64,000 nucleotides of DNA from Nocardia sp. BMG111209 (lineage in GTDB: Bacteria > Actinomycetota > Actinomycetes > Mycobacteriales > Mycobacteriaceae): contig NZ_KB907307.1 in the NCBI RefSeq assembly GCF_000381925.1, positions 2,232,001-2,296,000 of the forward strand, read 5' to 3'. Position 1 is the stretch's first letter, and each line of letters begins with the position of its first letter. The position numbers were made by a program, and so were the translations under genes. A model generated the notes under the pieces. The model searched no databases, was not told where the DNA came from, and saw only the letters and a program-made list of their open reading frames with translations. Positions 37,559 through 48,923 of the stretch are shown here, one piece after another.

Positions 37559-38670
<1,112 letters not shown>

Positions 38671-38674
<4 letters not shown>

Positions 38675-39177
38675 TGGTTGTCTCCGTTCGTCGTGCTGGT
38701 GTGGGCGCCCGTCCAGGCCGGGTACACCGTCTTGTCGTCGCCGCGGAACCCGGTATCCACCTCGGTCCCCGTCGGCAGCTTCCAGCGAATGACCAGCACA
38801 CCATCTTCCGTCATGACCTTGCCCGCGTGGCCGCGCTCGGTCCGCACCGCCGTGATGGACTCGCGCGGAATCCAGATCGGCGCGGCGCCGTCGCGCTCCA
38901 GCAGTACGCCGCGCTCGAAGCGGGTCAGCTCCGCGGTCGCGCGGAAACCGAGGTCTCCCACCACGATCCGGTTCTGCCAACTCGGTGCGAGCGTCGTCCC
39001 GGTGTAGAGGCCGGTGGTCGGCTCCAGCACCTGCGCGCCGAGTTCGGCGGGCACCTGCGGCAGTTCGCCGACGGCGTCCGCCTGGCGCGCGCCGCGCTTG
39101 CGCCACGACCGGTACATTCCCCACAGGATCAGCGCGAACAGCGCCAGCAGCAGGAGAACCAGCAGGGTCCGTTCCAT
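38671..39177 (-). CDS. Single-pass membrane protein of the pyr operon
   Basis: A 168-residue protein with one N-terminal membrane helix ([18 protein letters not shown], about residues 5-22), a basic stop-transfer (RSWRKRG) and a soluble PH-like beta domain ([20 protein letters not shown], then [20 protein letters not shown]). A homologue lies between pyrC and carA in mycobacteria (the Rv1382 position), so the placement is conserved. Its start shares one base with the pyrC stop (TAATG) and its stop overlaps carA, so it is tightly coupled. The function is unknown; a membrane tether or regulator is possible. Confidence 0.85.
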
Positions 39178-40499
39178 TACGACTCTCCTCCCGTCCCGGC
39201 GCCGGCACCGGCGCGGATCGACCCGTTCCGGGCGGTGAGCCGGCCGCGCAGGAAGGTGGCTGTCACCCGCCCCGGCAGGGTCATCGCCTCGTAGGGCGTG
39301 TTGTTCGAGATGCTGGCCAGGTCGGCGGACCGCACCGTCCACTCGGCCTCGGGGTCGACCAGCACCAGGTTGGCCGGTTCGCCCACGGCGAGCGGCCGGC
39401 CCTGATCGTCCAGGCCCACGATCCGGGCCGGATTCTCGCTCATCACGCGGGCCACCCCGCGCCAGTCCAGCAGACCCGGGCGGACCATGGTGTCCACCAC
39501 CACCGACAGCGCGGTCTCCAGGCCCAGCATGCCGGGCCGGGCCGCCGCGAATTCGCAGCACTTGTCCTGCTCGGCGTGCGGTGCGTGGTCGGTGGCGACG
39601 CAGTCGACGACCCCGTCGGCCAGCGCCTGCCGCAGCGCGGCCACGTCGGTGGCCTCGCGCAGCGGCGGATTCACCTTGTTCACCGCGTCGTAGGTCGCGA
39701 GCCGCGAGTCGTCCAGCAGCAGATGATGCGGGGTGACCTCGGCGGTGATCGAAATCCCTTGCGCCTTCGCCCATTTCAGGATCTCGACGGTGCCCGCGGT
39801 GGAGGCGTGGCAGATGTGCACGCGGGCGCCGGCGTCGCGGGCCAGCAGCGCGTCGCGGGCGACGATCGACTCCTCGGCCGCGCGCGGCCAACCGGCCAGG
39901 CCGAGCCGCGACGCGTTCGGGCCCTCGTGTGCCACGGCGCCCGCGGTCAGCCGGGGCTCCTCGGCGTGCTGGGCGATCAGGACGCCCAGCGAGTTCGCGT
40001 ATTCCAGGGCGCGGCGCATGATCAGCGGATCGTGCACGCACTGGCCGTCGTCGGAGAACATCCGGACCTCGGCCTCGCCGGCGGCCATGGTGCCCATCTC
40101 GGCCAGCTGCTTGCCGGCCAGGCCCACGGTGACCGCGCCGACCGGGTACACGTCGACCAGGCCGATCTCGCGGCCGCGGCGCCGGACGTGGTCGGTGACC
40201 ACCGGGTTGTCGGCCACCGGGCTGGTGTTGGCCATCGCGAACACCGCGGTGTAGCCGCCGAGAGCCGCTGCGGCGGAACCGGATTCGATGGTCTCGGTAT
40301 CCTCGCGGCCGGGCTCGCGCAGATGGGTGTGCAGATCCACGAAGCCGGGCAGCAGCACCTGGCCGGCGCCGTCGATCGTCTCCACCTCGCCGTCGGTCAC
40401 GAGATCCGGTCCGAGCGCACGGATCTCGCCCTCACCGAGCAGGACGTCGACGGGTTCGCCCTCGCCGTAGGGCCGGACATTCCTGATCAAGATGGTCAT
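39177..40499 (-). CDS. pyrC: Dihydroorotase
   Basis: A 440-residue amidohydrolase that cyclises carbamoyl aspartate. Metal ligands are visible: [12 protein letters not shown] (two His), HICHAST and EVTPHHL (His) and VATDHAPH (Asp). The length suits the class-I type. The start is taken as ATG 40499 ([14 protein letters not shown]) with GGGAG 9 nt upstream. An alternative ATG at 40574 overlaps the pyrB stop (ATGA) and would add 25 residues not typical of the family, so it may instead be a coupling frame. Confidence 0.95.
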
Positions 40500-40570
40500 G
40501 CTGCGCTTCTCCCGCACGATCGGGAGGCCTCCGTGGTTACGCTCCGCTGCCGCCTCCGGCCTCGACCCGC

Positions 40571-41536
40571 TCATGCGACGACCTCCTCCGCACCGGCGAG
40601 CAGACGGAACAGCACCGCCATGCGCATGTGTACGCCGTTGTTGACCTGTTGCAGCACAGCGGCTTTCGGTGAATCGGCGACCGCCGAGGCGATCTCCATA
40701 CCGCGCAGCATGGGGCCGGGGTGCAGCACCACCGCGTCCTCGGACAGCAGCGCGAGACGACGTTCGTTCAGCCCGTAGCGGATCGAGTACTCGCGGGCCG
40801 ACGGGAAGAAACCGCCGTTCATCCGCTCGGCCTGCACGCGCAGCATCATCACCGCGTCCGCACCGGGCAGTTCGGCGTCCAGCGAATCCGAGATCCGCAC
40901 CGGCCAGTGGGTCACGCCGACCGGCAGCAGGGTGCGCGGCGCGACCAGCACCACATCGGCGCCGAGGATGTTCAGCAGGAAGGCATTCGAGCGCGCCACC
41001 CGGCTGTGCAGGATGTCGCCGACGATCACGATCCGCTTGCCCTCGAGCGATCCCAGCCGCTGCCGCAGCGTCAGCGCGTCCAGCAGCGCCTGGGTCGGAT
41101 GTTCGTGCATACCGTCGCCGGCGTTCACCACCGCCGGGCCGTTGCCCGCGAAACCGCCGGAGCCGCTGGGCATCTCGGCGAACCACCGGGCGATCTGATG
41201 TGCGGCGCCGGAGGCCGGGTGCCGCACCACCAGCGCGTCGGCGCCGGCCGCGTGCAGGGTCAGCGCGGTGTCGCGCAGCGATTCCCCCTTGGACACCGAG
41301 GAACTGGAGGCGCTGACGTTGATCACGTCCGCACTCATCCACTTTCCGGCGACCTCGAAGGACACCCGGGTGCGGGTGGAGTTCTCGAAGAAGACCGTCA
41401 TCACGGTGCGACCGCGCAGCGTCGGCAGCTTGCGCACCTCGCGGCCGAGCAGCGCCTGCTCGAATCGCTCGGCGTCGTCGAGCAACCGGGTCGCGGCATC
41501 GCGATCGAGGTCGGTCACCGACAGCAGATGCCTCAC
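40571..41536 (-). CDS. pyrB: Aspartate carbamoyltransferase catalytic subunit
   Basis: A 321-residue transcarbamoylase for the first committed step of pyrimidine synthesis. The carbamoyl-phosphate site is [13 protein letters not shown] (STRTR); [14 protein letters not shown] is the mobile loop, [12 protein letters not shown] the aspartate-side motif and [10 protein letters not shown] the LRxQ-type region. No regulatory subunit gene (pyrI) is present, as usual in actinobacteria. ATG 41536 overlaps the pyrR stop by 4 nt. Confidence 0.96.
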
Positions 41537-42138
41537 TGTTCGTCCCCCTGATGCAGGTAGACGCCGTCGCGGCCGTCGTGTTCGGTGAGCAGTACGGAGA
41601 TGTCCTCACTGCGGGAGGTCGGCACGTTCTTGCCGACGTAATCGGCACGGATCGGCAGTTCGCGGTGGCCGCGGTCGATCAGCACGGCCAGCTGCACCGC
41701 GCGGGGACGGCCGAGGTCGCGCAGGCCGTCGAGCGCCGAACGGACGCTGCGGCCGGAGAAGAGCACATCGTCGACCAGCACCACCAGGGCGTTCTCGATG
41801 CCACCCTCCGGCACCTGGGTCCGCTCGAGCGGGCGGTGCGGCCGGTTGCGCAGATCGTCGCGATAGAGGGTGATGTCCAGCGAGCCGAGCGCCGGGCGCA
41901 CCCCGGAGAACTCCTCGATCCGGTCGGTCAGCCGGGCGGCCAACGAGGTTCCGCGCGTGGGGATTCCGATGAGCACCACGCGCGGCGCCCCGGAATCGGC
42001 CGCGTCGAGGGCGGTCTTCTCGATGATCTGGTGGGCCATCCGGGCCACGGTGCGGCTCACGTCCTGCGCCGACAGCAACTCGCGCCCGGCCCGGATCCAC
42101 TCCGGGTCGTGCCGCTGCGAGTATTCGGGCACGGCCAT
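41533..42138 (-). CDS. pyrR: PyrR, pyrimidine operon regulator / uracil phosphoribosyltransferase
   Basis: A 201-residue bifunctional PyrR. It has the PRPP loop [35 protein letters not shown] and the RNA-binding surface typical of the family ([12 protein letters not shown]). In Bacillus it attenuates transcription; in mycobacteria it is thought to block translation of its own operon. The leader here fits the latter. It is the first gene of pyrR-pyrB-pyrC-(membrane protein)-carA-carB-(small ORF)-pyrF. Confidence 0.95.
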
Positions 42139-43315: not shown

Positions 43316-43762
43316 ATGGATTCCACGCAGACCGTCTCCGAGTCGGCCGTCCGGGCGGCCCGTGAGCTGCGGGTGCTGATCAGCCGGCTGCGGCGGCGCT
43401 TCCTGGAGGCCTCCGACAGCCGCGAGCTCACCCCCTCGCAGATGTCGGTGCTGAGCCGGTTGCACAAGCGCGGCGACAGCACCGCCAGTGACCTCGCCGC
43501 CGCCGAACGGGTGCGTCCGCAGGCGGTCGCCGCCACTCTCGGCGTGCTCGACGAGCGTGGATTCGTCGAACGTCGCACCGATCCCGCCGACCGCCGCCGC
43601 CAGGTGGTGTCGCTGACAAGGGCCGGCCGCGATCTGCTGGACGACCGCGGGCAGGCGGGACAGGAATGGCTGTCCGCCGCCCTGCAGGAACATTTCACCG
43701 AGGCCGAACGGGCCACCGTACTGGACGCGCTGGCACTGCTGGAGAGGCTGACCGCGCAATGA
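43316..43762 (+). CDS. MarR-family transcriptional regulator
   Basis: A 148-residue winged-helix regulator. The DNA-binding part is LTPSQMSVLSRLHKRGDSTA, SDLAAAERVRPQAVAATLGV and the wing RRTDPADRRRQVVSLT (the DxRxxR motif of MarR). The flanking helices form the dimerisation domain. The start ATG 43316 follows the operator closely. Its stop overlaps the transporter start (ATGA), so it likely represses the efflux gene until an inducer binds. Confidence 0.9.
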   Translation: MDSTQTVSESAVRAARELRVLISRLRRRFLEASDSRELTPSQMSVLSRLHKRGDSTASDLAAAERVRPQAVAATLGVLDERGFVERRTDPADRRRQVVSLTRAGRDLLDDRGQAGQEWLSAALQEHFTEAERATVLDALALLERLTAQ

Positions 43763-45174
43763 CGGCCACGCTGGAGCGATTCGGCCGCAGATTCCGGCGA
43801 CCGGCGCAGGCCGACGGGTTCGACCGGCGGCTGATCGTCCCGATGATCGTGTCGTCGGTGCTCAATCCGGTGAACTCGTCGATCCTCGCCGTATCGCTGG
43901 TGCCGATCGGGGTCGCGTTCGGCGCGCCGCCGGCGCAGACCGCGTGGCTGGTGTCGGCGCTGTACCTGGCCACCGCGATCGGTCAGCCGGTGGTCGGACG
44001 GCTGATCGACCTGTACGGACCGCGCCGGTTGTATCTCGCGGGCGCCGCGCTGACCGGGATCGCCGGGGTGCTGGGCCTGCTGGCGCCGGCGTTGTGGGTG
44101 CTCGTGCTGGCCCGGGTCGTCCTCGGTTTCGGCACGTGCGCGGGCTATCCCGCCTCGATGTACCTGATCCGCAGCGAGTCCCGGCGAACCGGCCACGACA
44201 GCCCGGCGCGTGTGCTGACCGCGCTGTCGATCGCCAGTCAGACCGTCGTCGTACTCGGCCCCACCGCGGGCGGACTGCTGATCCATCTGGGTGGCTGGCG
44301 CGCCACCTTCGCCGTGAACATTCCGCTGGCCCTGGCCTGTCTGGTCCTGGGTATCCGGCGACTGCCCCGGACTCCGATCGCCCGGCGGGGCAGCCTCGCC
44401 GGACTGGACGTCCCGGGTATCGGCCTGTTCGCCGTCATGCTCGTCGCGCTGCTGCTGTTCCTGATGAAACCCGCTGTGGCGCACTGGTATCTGCCGGTGC
44501 TCGCGGTGGTCGCCGCGGCCGCGCTGGTGGTGCGGGAACGGCGCACGGCCGAGCCGTTCGTGGACGTCCGCCTGCTCGGCGGGAATCTGCCGCTGGTCGC
44601 CACCTATGTGCGCGCCACGTTGTCCGCGCTGATCGCCTATTGCTTCCTGTACGGGTTCACCCAGTGGCTCGAGGACGGCCGCGGGCTGTCGGCGGCCACC
44701 GCCGGTCTGGTGCTGTTGCCGATGTCGCTGGCCGGGATCGGCGTCGCGGCACTCACCGGGCGCCGCAACGGAATTCGCGGCAAACTGGTGGTCGGTGCGA
44801 TCGCGCAGATCGCGGCCGCGAGCCTGCTGCTGGCCGTGCACGCGTCGACCACCATCTGGGTGCTGGTCGCGGCGGTGTGCATCATGGGAATTCCGCAGGG
44901 GCTCAACAATCTCGCGATCCAGAACGCCGTCTACCACCAGGCCGAGCCGGAACGGATGGCCTCGTCGGCGGGGCTGCTGCGCACCTTCATGTATCTCGGG
45001 GCCATCGGCTCGGCGGCGGCCGGCGGCGCGCTGCTGACCCGGCCCGCGGGTACCGATGCGCTGCACCATCTTTCGCTGTTCATGCTGATCGCGGCGGTGC
45101 TGTTCCTGATCATGACCCTCGCGGACCGCTCGCTGGCGCGCCCCGGTCGGCCCGCGGCGGCCGGACAGCCCTGA
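43759..45174 (+). CDS. MFS efflux transporter (DHA2-like)
   Basis: A 471-residue transporter with about 14 membrane segments. TM1-2 with SVLNPVNSSILAVSLVPIGV, the loop VVGRLIDLYGPRRLYLAG (motif A, G-x-L-x-D-x-x-G-x-R/K) and TM5 ASQTVVVLGPTAGGLLIHLG (motif C-like) point to the drug/proton antiporter group. It is expressed with marR, so drug or toxic-metabolite export is likely; the substrate is unknown. The start ATG 43759 overlaps marR. Confidence 0.87.
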   Translation: MTATLERFGRRFRRPAQADGFDRRLIVPMIVSSVLNPVNSSILAVSLVPIGVAFGAPPAQTAWLVSALYLATAIGQPVVGRLIDLYGPRRLYLAGAALTGIAGVLGLLAPALWVLVLARVVLGFGTCAGYPASMYLIRSESRRTGHDSPARVLTALSIASQTVVVLGPTAGGLLIHLGGWRATFAVNIPLALACLVLGIRRLPRTPIARRGSLAGLDVPGIGLFAVMLVALLLFLMKPAVAHWYLPVLAVVAAAALVVRERRTAEPFVDVRLLGGNLPLVATYVRATLSALIAYCFLYGFTQWLEDGRGLSAATAGLVLLPMSLAGIGVAALTGRRNGIRGKLVVGAIAQIAAASLLLAVHASTTIWVLVAAVCIMGIPQGLNNLAIQNAVYHQAEPERMASSAGLLRTFMYLGAIGSAAAGGALLTRPAGTDALHHLSLFMLIAAVLFLIMTLADRSLARPGRPAAAGQP

Positions 45175-45314: not shown

Positions 45315-45956
45315 ATGCCGACCACACTCCAGGGATCGCTGTTCGACTGTCCCGACGAGGACGCGAGCGGGGAGGCCGCGCCCCGGGCGCTGACCGGGGT
45401 GCGGCGCACACACCTGGGTTCGGGGGCGTGGGTCGATGTGTTGCCGGCCTGGCTCACCGGGTCGGATGCGCTGTTCGAACGGCTGGTCGCGCGGGTGCCG
45501 TGGCGGGCCGACCGGCGGCCGATGTACGACCGGGTGGTGGATGTGCCACGGCTGCAACGGTTCTACGACGAGGACGAGCCGTTACCGGATCCGGCGCTCG
45601 ACGCGGCGCGGGTGGCGCTGAGCACGTATTACGCCGCGGAACTCGGCGAGCCGTTCCGCACGGTCGGGTTGTGCTGGTATCGCGACGGCAACGACAGCGT
45701 CGCGTGGCACGGTGACACGACCGGGCGCGGCGCCCGGTACGACACGATGGTCGCGATCGTATCCGTCGGCGCGCCGCGGGGGCTGGCGTTGCGGCCGCGC
45801 GGTGGGGGCGCGGCGGTCCGGTACCAGCTCGGCCACGGTGATCTGCTGGTGATGGGTGGGTCGTGCCAGCGGACGTGGGAGCATGCGGTGCCGAAGACCC
45901 GGCGGTCGGTCGGGCCGCGGATCAGTATCCAGTTCCGGCCTCGCGGGGTGCGCTGA
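45315..45956 (+). CDS. AlkB-like Fe(II)/2-oxoglutarate dioxygenase
   Basis: A 213-residue dioxygenase, probably removing alkyl lesions from DNA or RNA bases. The metal triad is His132 and Asp134 in WHGDTTG and His190 in TWEHAVP. The 2-oxoglutarate arginines are in PRISIQFR (Arg202, Arg208), and the upstream LCWYRDGNDSVAWHGD is the family's N/L-x-Y-R/x-D/G strand. It starts after an SOS-like box. The 3' end overlaps the convergent MutS-like gene by 35 bp, an unusual tail-to-tail overlap. The adaptive-response genes ada/aidB are not nearby. Confidence 0.9.
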   Translation: MPTTLQGSLFDCPDEDASGEAAPRALTGVRRTHLGSGAWVDVLPAWLTGSDALFERLVARVPWRADRRPMYDRVVDVPRLQRFYDEDEPLPDPALDAARVALSTYYAAELGEPFRTVGLCWYRDGNDSVAWHGDTTGRGARYDTMVAIVSVGAPRGLALRPRGGGAAVRYQLGHGDLLVMGGSCQRTWEHAVPKTRRSVGPRISIQFRPRGVR

Positions 45957-47403
45957 ACACCTGCCGGAACAGGTCGGCGCCGTGCGCCTCCGGGCGGGGT
46001 GCGCCCGGCGTCATCCGATAGGTGCGGGTGCCGTCGTCGGCGCGTCCGGCGCGCAGGAACAGATCCGCCGGCCGGGCCTCGGCGCTACGGGCGGCGGCGA
46101 ATTCGTGGAGATGTGTGACGACGACGACCGTCACCCCGGAATCCACCAGGGCCGCGAACAACGGCCCGGCCAGCCGCGCGGCGTCGTGTTCGCCGGTGGA
46201 GGCGAACGACTCGTTGCACAGCAGCAATCCACCGGCGCCGATCCGGTCGACGACGCCGCTCATCGCCGCCAGTTCCTCGGCCAACCGGCCGCGGGTCAGC
46301 GTCCGGTCCTCCTCCGGCGCGAAATGGGTGAACACGCCGGAGCGGACGGGTGCGGCGAATTCGTCGGCGGCCACGAACAGGCCCGCCTGCAACATGATCT
46401 GAGCGATACCGGCGCTGCGCAGGAAGGTGGTCTTGCCGCCGTTGTTGGCCCCGGTCACGACGAGCAGCGTGCGATCGGCGGCCGCCACGTCGACCCCGGC
46501 CACCAGCTCCCCCGCCAGGCACAGGCCGATATCGCGCAGGCCGACGCAGTGCAGACCGGGTGACCGCGCCGGGAGCACGGCCGGTACGCACACCGGCACC
46601 CCGGCCTGTTCCAGACGCTGCCGCAGGGTGTGCGCGCCGAGGTAGAAGGCCAGTTCGGTGCGCAATCGGAGGAAGAAGTCGCCGATACCGTCCGCGGCGC
46701 GGCTGACCACGTCGGCGACCTCCGCCAGCGCCCGGCTCCGGAAACGGGTCAGCGCGGTGGCCCCGGCCTCGAAATCATCGATCGCCTCGAAGGCCCCGCT
46801 CCGGCGGCGCAGCCCGCGCGGGCGGGATCGGGGCGGGGCGTGCAGAATCGGATCCACCGGCTTGTTACCCGGTCCGAGGGCGACGCTGAGGTGCGTGCCG
46901 TGCTCGAAATCCAGGGCGGCGAGGTGCGTGCCGACCTCGTCGAAGTACTCGTCCGGGAGGGTGGCGCGCACCTGCGCGCACAGTTCGGTCAGTCCGGCCG
47001 AGCGGAAAACCGCTGCGCCACGGTCGCATTCGGCGCGCAGGCGGTGCAGCAGGGTCATCAGCTCGGTGATCGGCTGGAGCGCCAGCAGCAGTTTGCCGCC
47101 CGGACGGCTGCCGCGGCCGATCGTCCAGCGCCGCACTTCCGTTGCCGCGCAGGCGATCTCGTACATCGCGCGGATCCGGTCCGGGTGTGCGCAGCAGTCG
47201 GCGAACACCTCCTGGCGGTACCGGACGGTCGCGGCGTCGGCGGCGAGCGCGGTCAGGCCGGACCGGGCGGCGGCCAGCAGCACCGCGTCGCCACCGGCCA
47301 TCGCGGCGCAGACGGCGTCCAAGCCCAGGTCGGCGGCCACGGTCTCGCCGAGGGTCGCGGACGCGACGGGGGCGCCGGGCGGGTATCGGAGGTGCGGTCT
47401 CAT
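45922..47403 (-). CDS. MutS-like ATPase, second of a tandem pair
   Basis: A 493-residue protein with only the MutS core (lever/clamp-like helices) and ATPase domain; the mismatch-reading N-terminal domain is absent and there is no Smr domain as in MutS2. Near the N-terminus TVRYRQEVFADC (59-70) matches the sister protein. Walker A is GANNGGKTT (318-326). The Walker B position reads GLLLCNESFAST (392-403), with Asn in place of the Asp of the usual DE pair; a HLHEF (MutS His) follows. Its ATG overlaps the sister gene stop (ATGA), suggesting a stoichiometric pair, perhaps a heterodimer. Confidence 0.85.
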   Translation of the reverse strand: MRPHLRYPPGAPVASATLGETVAADLGLDAVCAAMAGGDAVLLAAARSGLTALAADAATVRYRQEVFADCCAHPDRIRAMYEIACAATEVRRWTIGRGSRPGGKLLLALQPITELMTLLHRLRAECDRGAAVFRSAGLTELCAQVRATLPDEYFDEVGTHLAALDFEHGTHLSVALGPGNKPVDPILHAPPRSRPRGLRRRSGAFEAIDDFEAGATALTRFRSRALAEVADVVSRAADGIGDFFLRLRTELAFYLGAHTLRQRLEQAGVPVCVPAVLPARSPGLHCVGLRDIGLCLAGELVAGVDVAAADRTLLVVTGANNGGKTTFLRSAGIAQIMLQAGLFVAADEFAAPVRSGVFTHFAPEEDRTLTRGRLAEELAAMSGVVDRIGAGGLLLCNESFASTGEHDAARLAGPLFAALVDSGVTVVVVTHLHEFAAARSAEARPADLFLRAGRADDGTRTYRMTPGAPRPEAHGADLFRQVFSAPREAGTGY

Positions 47404-48923
47404 CCGGCGATCCGCGCGGTGACCGCCTCGTAGGTGAGGCCGTATCGGTCCGCGAGCGTCGCCGCGTGCGCCCGGCTGTCGGCGGGGCGCCGGTGCAGCC
47501 GGTAGGTGCGGCGCGCCGGATCGCCGGACGCCACCGCCGCGACCAGGCCGACCCGGGCCGGACCGGTGGCCAGCCCCTCGAAGAAGGTGACGAAGACCGT
47601 GATCGCCCCCAGCGCGGCGATCCGGTCGAGCACCTCGCCGCCGATGCGCAGGCCGTCGGCGGTGGTGGTCGACGCGAAACTCTCGTTCAGCAGGATCACG
47701 CTGCGGGAGGTGGCGACGGCGAGTGTGTCGCGGACCGCGGTGAGTTCGCGCAGCAACCGGCCGGTCCGGTCGTCGGCGGCGTCGGCACGTTCGAAATGGG
47801 TGCAGATCCGGTCCGGTAGCGGCAGTCGCGCGTGCGCCGCCGGTACCGGGCAACCCAGGGCCGCCAGGTAGACCAATTGGCCCACGGTGCGAGCGAAAGT
47901 GGTCTTGCCACCGGAGTTCGGTCCGGTGACCACCAGGATGCGCTCGGTGTCGTCGAGCCGGACGTCGTTGCACACCAGCGGTTTCCGCTCGGCCACGTGT
48001 TTCAGGGCGAGTGTCATGTCGAAAGCCGCGGTGGCGGTGGGGCGGTCGAATTCCGCGGTCACCTCGGGCAGGGTCAGCGCGCGGCCGTCGCCGGTCACGC
48101 GCTCGGCCACGGCGAGATACCGCAGATAGAAATGGATTTCGCGATCGAAGACGGCGACACCCGGATCGGCGAACTCCGCGTGCTCGCGCGCGAACCGGTC
48201 GAGCAGCCGGAACGGCGCGGGGAACAGCTCCGCCACCCGGTCCAGCATCTGCATCTCGAACGGATCCGGCTCCGAGCGATCCGGCGCGGATCTCGGCGCG
48301 GGCTCGCCGGATCCGAAGCGGCGGAACAGGTTCGCGATGGTGTCCGCGTAATCCGGCTCACCGCCGTATGTTCCGACCTCGACGGTGCGGTCCAGGATCC
48401 GGACTGCGAAACGCACCTCGCGCAACGCGCTTTCGGCGGCCCGTACGTCCGTGGCGAGCCGGGTGAACGCGGCGCCCGCGGTCAATTCCGCGACGTAGGC
48501 GCGCCAGCCGGTGAGCGCGCGGGAGGTGAGCGGCAGTCCGGTCAGCTCGTCGTGCAGCCGGGTCACCGCCGATACGTACTCCGCCGCGGCGTCGAGCAAC
48601 CGGCGGGCCCGCTGCCGCGGATGGCGATGCCCGGTCGACAGCGCGGTCAGATCGCGCATCCGCCACAGCGCCACGGCGAACTCGTCGAACACCCGACAGG
48701 CCTGCGGCGCGGCCAGATCGGTGAACACCTCCTGGCGATACCGGACCGCGTCGAGATCGCACAACGGCCGGCGCAGCCATTCGGTGAGCCGATACGGGTC
48801 GAGGTCGCCGGCCACCGCCGCGATGATCCGGTCCAGGTGCAGATCGGCCCGCACCCGATCGGAGACTACCGTCTCCCCGATCGGCGCGGGCCGGGGCTGC
48901 CACAGCACACTGCGATACTCCAT
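47400..48923 (-). CDS. MutS-like ATPase, first of a tandem pair
   Basis: A 507-residue paralogue of the downstream gene, also lacking the mismatch-recognition and Smr domains. AVRYRQEVFTDL is at 59-70, the helical core covers about 75-300, Walker A is GPNSGGKTT (334-342), and Walker B is SVILLNESFAST (408-419) with Asn413-Glu414 instead of Asp-Glu. It resembles the MutS-related ATPases of unknown role found in actinobacteria and firmicutes. Classical mutS/mutL are absent from Corynebacteriales in general, so canonical repair is unlikely. A 161-bp divergent gap separates it from the HD hydrolase. Confidence 0.85.
   Translation of the reverse strand: MEYRSVLWQPRPAPIGETVVSDRVRADLHLDRIIAAVAGDLDPYRLTEWLRRPLCDLDAVRYRQEVFTDLAAPQACRVFDEFAVALWRMRDLTALSTGHRHPRQRARRLLDAAAEYVSAVTRLHDELTGLPLTSRALTGWRAYVAELTAGAAFTRLATDVRAAESALREVRFAVRILDRTVEVGTYGGEPDYADTIANLFRRFGSGEPAPRSAPDRSEPDPFEMQMLDRVAELFPAPFRLLDRFAREHAEFADPGVAVFDREIHFYLRYLAVAERVTGDGRALTLPEVTAEFDRPTATAAFDMTLALKHVAERKPLVCNDVRLDDTERILVVTGPNSGGKTTFARTVGQLVYLAALGCPVPAAHARLPLPDRICTHFERADAADDRTGRLLRELTAVRDTLAVATSRSVILLNESFASTTTADGLRIGGEVLDRIAALGAITVFVTFFEGLATGPARVGLVAAVASGDPARRTYRLHRRPADSRAHAATLADRYGLTYEAVTARIAG

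Follow-up and report, generated by a model that had tools for sequence, protein, structure and literature searches.

What does a bacterium do with a pair of short MutS-type ATPases that lack the domains for reading mismatches? The question is raised by two overlapping genes of Nocardia sp. BMG111209, which lie in a window of 64,000 nucleotides (contig NZ_KB907307.1 of assembly GCF_000381925.1, positions 2,232,001 to 2,296,000; the window is the whole stretch of DNA that was analysed). The two proteins fit the known MutS4A/MutS4B pair, and in relatives from several lineages this pair is found behind a fluoride riboswitch. We propose a heterodimeric MutS-fold clamp for fluoride stress, not for mismatch repair, and give this proposal an even chance. 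The features of the pair are as follows.

47400..48923, reverse strand: MutS4A (gene A, P0002), 507 residues; lever, reduced clamp and MutS_V ATPase
45922..47403, reverse strand: MutS4B (gene B, P0001), 493 residues; layout as in MutS4A
47400..47403, reverse strand: ATGA overlap, TGA stop of A and ATG start of B
47898..47924, reverse strand: Walker A of A, GPNSGGKTT, residues 334-342
47667..47687, reverse strand: Walker B of A, NESFAST, residues 413-419
46426..46452, reverse strand: Walker A of B, GANNGGKTT, residues 318-326
46195..46215, reverse strand: Walker B of B, NESFAST, residues 397-403

Domain architecture and family assignment

The first-pass annotation of the window described two paralogues with shared motifs at these positions and with neither a mismatch-binding nor an Smr domain. 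Each of these points is borne out. A and B are 30% identical (BLASTP, E 7e-22) and share RYRQEVF at residues 61-67. Pfam MutS_V is recognized over its cut-off of 30.2 bits in both (72 bits in A, 50.9 in B), MutS_III stays below threshold in A (18.8 bits versus a cut-off of 34.1), and MutS_I, MutS_II and Smr are found in neither protein up to E 1. The predicted folds match MutS2 over lever, clamp and ATPase core and align to MSH2 only from about residue 291-298 on; at the place of the clamp, both models contain a single two-stranded hairpin. In the complete genome of the strain (9.14 Mb, 5 contigs), no MutS_V match besides A and B is found at E 0.001. No MutL is found there over the cut-off; three weak TIGR00585 matches reach at best 31.8 bits versus 180.

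The earlier view that the pair does not serve mismatch repair is thus supported: domains I and II are missing, the MSH2 alignment covers only the C-terminal part, MutL is lacking over the cut-off, and among 200 genomes of one family all nine that carry MutS4A have another match besides it, within a long MutS frame. A and B are members of the same family, relatives have the pair as well, and no mismatch domain appears in the profile search. The separate DNA- or RNA-processing complex proposed there is putative. What that interpretation overlooked is the fluoride-riboswitch context in relatives. Up to E 0.01, PADLOC returns no defence-system match for the pair.

MutS2 is a homodimer with an Smr domain. 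The pair resembles it in the absence of domains I and II, in the arrangement of lever, clamp and ATPase core and in fold, but differs in being of heterodimer type, without Smr, and with Asn-Glu where MutS2 has Asp-Glu at Walker B. Neither protein reaches the cut-off of the models for the two standard families, with 54.1 (A) and 47.6 (B) bits versus 400 for mutS2 (TIGR01069) and 95.2 (A) and 43.9 (B) bits versus 641.7 for the mutS1 equivalog (TIGR01070).

MutS4A and MutS4B are described, following Lin, Nei and Ma 2007, as adjacent genes with overlapping stop and start that are patchily spread through lateral transfer (PMC5742357). By gene structure and by this description, the window pair fits the family: its two MutS-ATPase paralogues lie side by side, the stop of one overlaps the start of the other, and neither has the mismatch-binding domain I. 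It differs from the island of Mycobacterium yongonense, where 13 genes include enolase, NADH-dehydrogenase/hydrogenase genes and MutS4AB (PMC5742357), in having no enolase or NADH-dehydrogenase/hydrogenase neighbours.

A conserved pair with Asn-Glu at Walker B

Relatives were collected from whole-genome searches, from a scan of public genomes (best 80 of 148 relatives) and from plasmids (104 records, not all MutS4). A and B occur together on one strand in 75 of the 75 loci in which both are called. The overlap, taken by the first-pass annotation as a sign of matched synthesis, measures exactly four nucleotides in 60 of these, and the gene order is reversed in one Clostridiales locus. Since same-strand pairing and the four-nucleotide overlap are conserved, a matched heterodimer of A and B is plausible.

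The Asn-Glu noted earlier at Walker B goes beyond chance and is fixed. It is present in 76/76 A rows and 83/83 B rows (rows over 350 residues, some of them near copies). Of 18 loci of MutS1/MutS2 type in genomes of Firmicutes, by comparison, 13 show Asp-Glu; in the other five the search pattern halted at an earlier DE and left Walker B unread. N413 of A aligns with D693 of E. coli MutS (residue numbers derived from the alignment), and the engineered D693N protein has a solved structure (PDB 3k0s). A MutS branch carries as a fixed trait an asparagine that is known at this position from an engineered variant. Single-gene relatives of about 540-570 residues from Ruminococcus and kin (L097-L112) are roughly equidistant from A and B and possibly represent a homodimeric sister group.

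Fluoride riboswitches upstream of the pair in relatives

Fluoride riboswitches were searched with Rfam RF01734 (gathering score 34 bits), which is found at gathering score beside the pair in several locus sets. An extra model built from 21 RF01734 hits has only 6 base pairs, so that its E-values are rough; it gives 112 matches in 72 sources and none in the window, in L033-L035 or in 34 further sources. Among the 33 Burkholderiales, non-Nocardia actinobacterial, other proteobacterial and Chloroflexi loci with a full A, 28 have a match on the same strand within 600 nucleotides upstream, and 31 have one anywhere in the locus. Twelve of these 28 reach the gathering score of Rfam, and 12 others are matches of the extra model. 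For the plasmid loci, the respective counts are four and six of seven. The 18 MutS1/MutS2-type loci, used as control, yield only two weak matches (E 0.4-0.5), and none of the 16 single-gene outgroup loci has a riboswitch upstream.

The loci had been selected by similarity and include near copies; broader genome draws were therefore added. The first comprised 200 genomes from the family of Burkholderia anthina G503 (genome of locus L053; family taken as Burkholderiaceae), a centre chosen because it bears the pair. Full-length MutS4A is found as eight genes in seven of the 200 genomes and is truncated in two more; most other matches are partial and lie in long MutS frames. All eight full-length genes have RF01734 on the same strand 124-266 nucleotides upstream of the matched region, and so do 6/6 when G503, which supplies two of the eight, is left out. 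Neither of the two truncated genes has a riboswitch upstream. Any RF01734 match, with the pair's own riboswitch counted, is present in 9/9 genomes with MutS4A versus 24/41 without (Fisher p 0.015), the latter being the first listed genomes over 5 Mb that lack MutS4A.

The second draw comprised 394 genomes of the class of the window. MutS4A is found in 11 of them, two from the same genus, with one weak partial match left out. RF01734 exceeds the cut-off in 4 of the 11 carriers versus 7 of 383 others (p 1e-4), and in 4 of 9 carriers when the genus itself is removed (p 4e-5). In the four positive carriers the riboswitch lies 71-208 nucleotides upstream of a MutS4A; a second MutS4A of one genome (G109) has only a weak upstream match (24.5 bits).

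Some genomes contain two MutS4 pairs or MutS4A genes (G010, on contigs C1 and C6, and G503), and both MutS4A genes of G503 have a riboswitch of their own. Two records titled Thermoplasmata archaeon (L074, L087) have riboswitch matches, and L087 stands among actinobacterial rows in the tree described below; binning errors or transfer are possible in both cases.

A gene labelled mutS is listed downstream of the crcB motif, now the fluoride riboswitch (PMC2864571). That report proposes a DNA-damage stress response and, in the portion of its text available to us, does not name the subfamily of mutS; the window copy differs from the genes listed there in having no riboswitch. Our results indicate that the MutS4 pair is such a mutS gene under the crcB RNA.

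Fluoride-type neighbours

In five of seven plasmid regions the pair lies near enolase, pyrophosphatase, CrcB, universal stress proteins, phosphoglycerate mutase, DUF190 or a hydrogenase-like module. Of the remaining regions, L118 is unannotated, and none of enolase, pyrophosphatase, CrcB or related neighbours is annotated in the Tsukamurella record L116. One plasmid region contains riboswitch, Na/H antiporter (PF00999), usp, MutS4A and MutS4B in one run. A tblastn search with 31 plasmid proteins (E 1e-6) finds neighbours of this kind again in many loci of Burkholderiales and in several of actinobacteria. Fluoride inhibits enolase, and genes often encountered behind the riboswitch include those for pyrophosphatase and Na/H antiporters (PMC11139923); MutS is absent from the available part of that account. 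Hydrogen fluoride enters cells as a weak acid at low pH (PMC11139923), which would suit the copies in Thermoplasmata, yet these have no riboswitch nearby.

Ancestry of the Nocardia copy

The window itself has no RF01734 match between 40000 and 55000 up to E 10. By eye, GGCGATG at the start of A resembles the aptamer core, and a loose core pattern spans the start codon in L035 and L133; both candidates were rejected, as no model matches there.

The nearest named loci are from Nocardia, with 83-85% identity. The pair is patchy: 17 of 58 genomes of the genus have some match to B, which is nearly full-length in 15 of them, and among 40 other genomes of the order one has such a match. A tree built from 74 rows of concatenated A and B unites the 16 Nocardia rows in a single group (support 100, starred) beside the pair of a Mycobacterium branderi plasmid (99, starred), which has a riboswitch 33 nucleotides before A. 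Both fall in a larger bacterial group of 54 rows (94, unstarred); of its 38 non-Nocardia rows, 35 have a riboswitch match in the locus. The tree is a quick one with long branches and uneven composition flagged, so that its deep branches are unsure. With tree neighbours that mostly bear riboswitches, the simplest reading is that the Nocardia pair kept its proteins and lost the riboswitch.

A proposed fluoride-stress clamp and its alternatives

In the proposed mechanism, MutS4A and MutS4B would form a heterodimer built on the lever-and-ATPase fold of MutS, in which the clamp is reduced and a domain for reading mismatches is absent. In each subunit Walker A is intact and the catalytic glutamate of Walker B is kept, but asparagine replaces the magnesium-binding aspartate, and slow, switch-like ATP use would be expected from this exchange. 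In part of its range, the pair would belong to the fluoride-stress response, with fluoride acting on the riboswitch and the two proteins being produced in matched amounts. The dimer may then close around a bulky target that builds up once fluoride has poisoned the enzymes of magnesium-dependent phosphoryl transfer, and the dimer would change state upon binding ATP. The simplest candidate for the target would be a branched nucleic acid or nucleoprotein, as for MutS2. In Nocardia, the proteins would have been retained after loss of the riboswitch. A wider version, in which MutS4AB would be an ATPase dedicated to fluoride stress wherever it has spread among bacteria and acid-loving archaea, appears rather unlikely to us: there, an ATP-switched clamp with a fixed aspartate-to-asparagine exchange at the magnesium site would free macromolecules (enzymes, ribosomes, nucleic acids) locked by magnesium-fluoride-phosphate chemistry.

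Several observations weigh against a fluoride role. The riboswitch is missing within 600 nucleotides upstream in the Rhodococcus and Tsukamurella plasmid loci (L115, L116), in 7/7 Firmicutes loci and in 17/17 archaea-labelled loci, mostly Thermoplasmata (two have a match anywhere), and upstream in all 19 Nocardia loci with full or near-full A. Of the 28 upstream matches, at least four (L051, L052, L057, L069) are under the Rfam gathering score, and 5 of the 9 carriers from outside the genus in the class draw have no RF01734 match, one of them (G125) with a gene that starts 32 bases into its contig. In the genome of the strain no RF01734 match exceeds the cut-off of 34 bits, two weak ones elsewhere reaching 17.4 and 16 bits; 31 genomes of the genus, of 40 searched, likewise give none over the cut-off and one weak match of 21.7 bits. 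The window has no enolase, pyrophosphatase or CrcB-type neighbour and no fluoride island. The tblastn search finds none of the plasmid-type neighbours in the window or the Nocardia loci apart from one weak NUDIX match, although distant members could escape it. The motif is also not specific: Asn-Glu is present in 8/8 inspected (of 16 fetched) single-gene Firmicutes relatives, which are riboswitch-free, so that it is not a fluoride adaptation and the change predates the pair or belongs to a wider branch. A measured fluoride phenotype for these genes was not found in the literature, and the only published experiment found concerns recombination.

That experiment supports a different function, in which MutS4AB is a recombination factor that would bind recombination intermediates and alter the incorporation of foreign DNA, fluoride control being secondary in some lineages. 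M. smegmatis carrying the M. yongonense operon showed more homologous recombination, with 27 of 36 sequenced colonies recombined versus 5 of 16 controls and with longer tracts (PMC5742357), and MutS2, likewise devoid of domains I and II, is said to accept Holliday junctions and D-loops (PMC12292046). However, this was a gain-of-function assay with few colonies, and the island tested holds enolase and a hydrogenase/NADH-dehydrogenase set, like fluoride islands. Recombination alone also leaves the riboswitch position at 8/8 genes unexplained, and the single two-stranded hairpin at the place of the clamp in both models counts against it. We regard this function as possible but on the unlikely side. 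Even less can be said for ribosome rescue, where the ATPase would split ribosomes stalled by fluoride-blocked translational GTPases by analogy to B. subtilis MutS2, which splits collided ribosomes (PMC10897456). There, MutS2 is recruited through KOW and SMR domains (PMC10897456), whereas Pfam finds no Smr here, and mismatch-repair MSH chains score equal or higher in the fold comparison; we consider this analogy quite improbable.

The neighbourhood of the pair in relatives would also be compatible with a protein reactivase, a dimer that might strip dead-end complexes trapped by fluoride from magnesium enzymes, for instance enolase or pyrophosphatase. Both enzymes are co-located with the pair in relatives, and the best NCBIfam match of B is KamC (NF052383, 508 model positions), a short MutS-like ATPase named as reactivase of lysine 5,6-aminomutase. 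Enolase and pyrophosphatase are, however, reported in fluoride operons without MutS4 as well. The KamC match is weak: the window proteins score 50.3 and 50.9 bits, far under the cut-off of 300; for B this score is barely above that of MutS2, for A it is under that of MutS1, and no protein exceeds the cut-off in the 13 genomes or records searched. A special kinship to KamC was rejected, as MutS2-type frames of about 790-810 residues score far higher on the same model (>200 bits). A reactivase therefore seems improbable to us, and we retain the fluoride-stress clamp as the favoured explanation.

Upstream elements and surroundings

A palindromic element of the ATTACTTGAC..CCGGTAAGT.AT type overlaps a -35-like TTGACG 85-96 nucleotides before MutS4A in the following loci; the window copy lacks it.

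L124 7588, L126 7493, L127 1587, L128 11414, L129 11191, L133 7355, L035 657: palindromic element

With a GAC core, the palindrome occurs once each in 6 of 16 pair-bearing Nocardia genomes, always at MutS4A; the two matches with another core (G000, G006) are both away from MutS4A. It suggests a putative site for a dedicated repressor. Control by the SOS response was considered and rejected: the region upstream of A in 18 Nocardia loci and L116, together 19 actinobacterial loci, shows no LexA-type box except for a loose match across the start codon in L126. Six of 21 loci have a MarR regulator and an MFS exporter close to the pair, arranged in two ways (window 43316-45174; L033, L127-L129, L133), and in L129 and L133 the palindrome lies between MutS4A and a divergent MarR gene. 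No other neighbour recurs in the 21 loci, and MarR/MFS sets may be common anyway.

In the window, a gene for an AlkB-like 2OG-Fe(II) oxygenase (PF13532, 45315-45956) runs towards MutS4B and shares 35 bases with its 3' end. Pyrimidine biosynthesis-like genes (37559-42138; pyrR, pyrB, pyrC and carA by eye) lie close to the pair, and nusB, efp and aroB are found in the vicinity of the Tsukamurella pair (L116); the two surroundings are possibly a shared insertion neighbourhood. Lachnospiraceae loci have recurring neighbours that resemble polA and coaE by eye.

Implications

MutS4A/B was already known, and a paper of 2010 mentions mutS among the genes under the crcB RNA (PMC2864571). A paper linking MutS4 to fluoride was not found in our literature search, for which subscription papers were mostly out of reach; the main text of PMC5742357, which discusses recombination, does not contain the word fluoride. 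One paper that contains fluoride, CrcB and MutS mentions, in its available text, the plasmid mutS and the fluoride transporter apart from each other. That the mutS under the crcB RNA is MutS4, and that the riboswitch precedes 8/8 full-length genes, is stated in no paper we found.

The window copy itself is a further MutS4A/MutS4B pair, and the point of interest is the functional proposal. It joins two loose ends, the mutS gene under the crcB RNA (PMC2864571) and the MutS4 family (PMC5742357), and MutS4 becomes directly testable with sodium fluoride. Some plasmid and chromosomal genes labelled as mismatch repair are probably part of a mobile fluoride-tolerance package. If the wider version were true, this branch of MutS would undo fluoride damage to the machinery of the cell rather than DNA mismatches.

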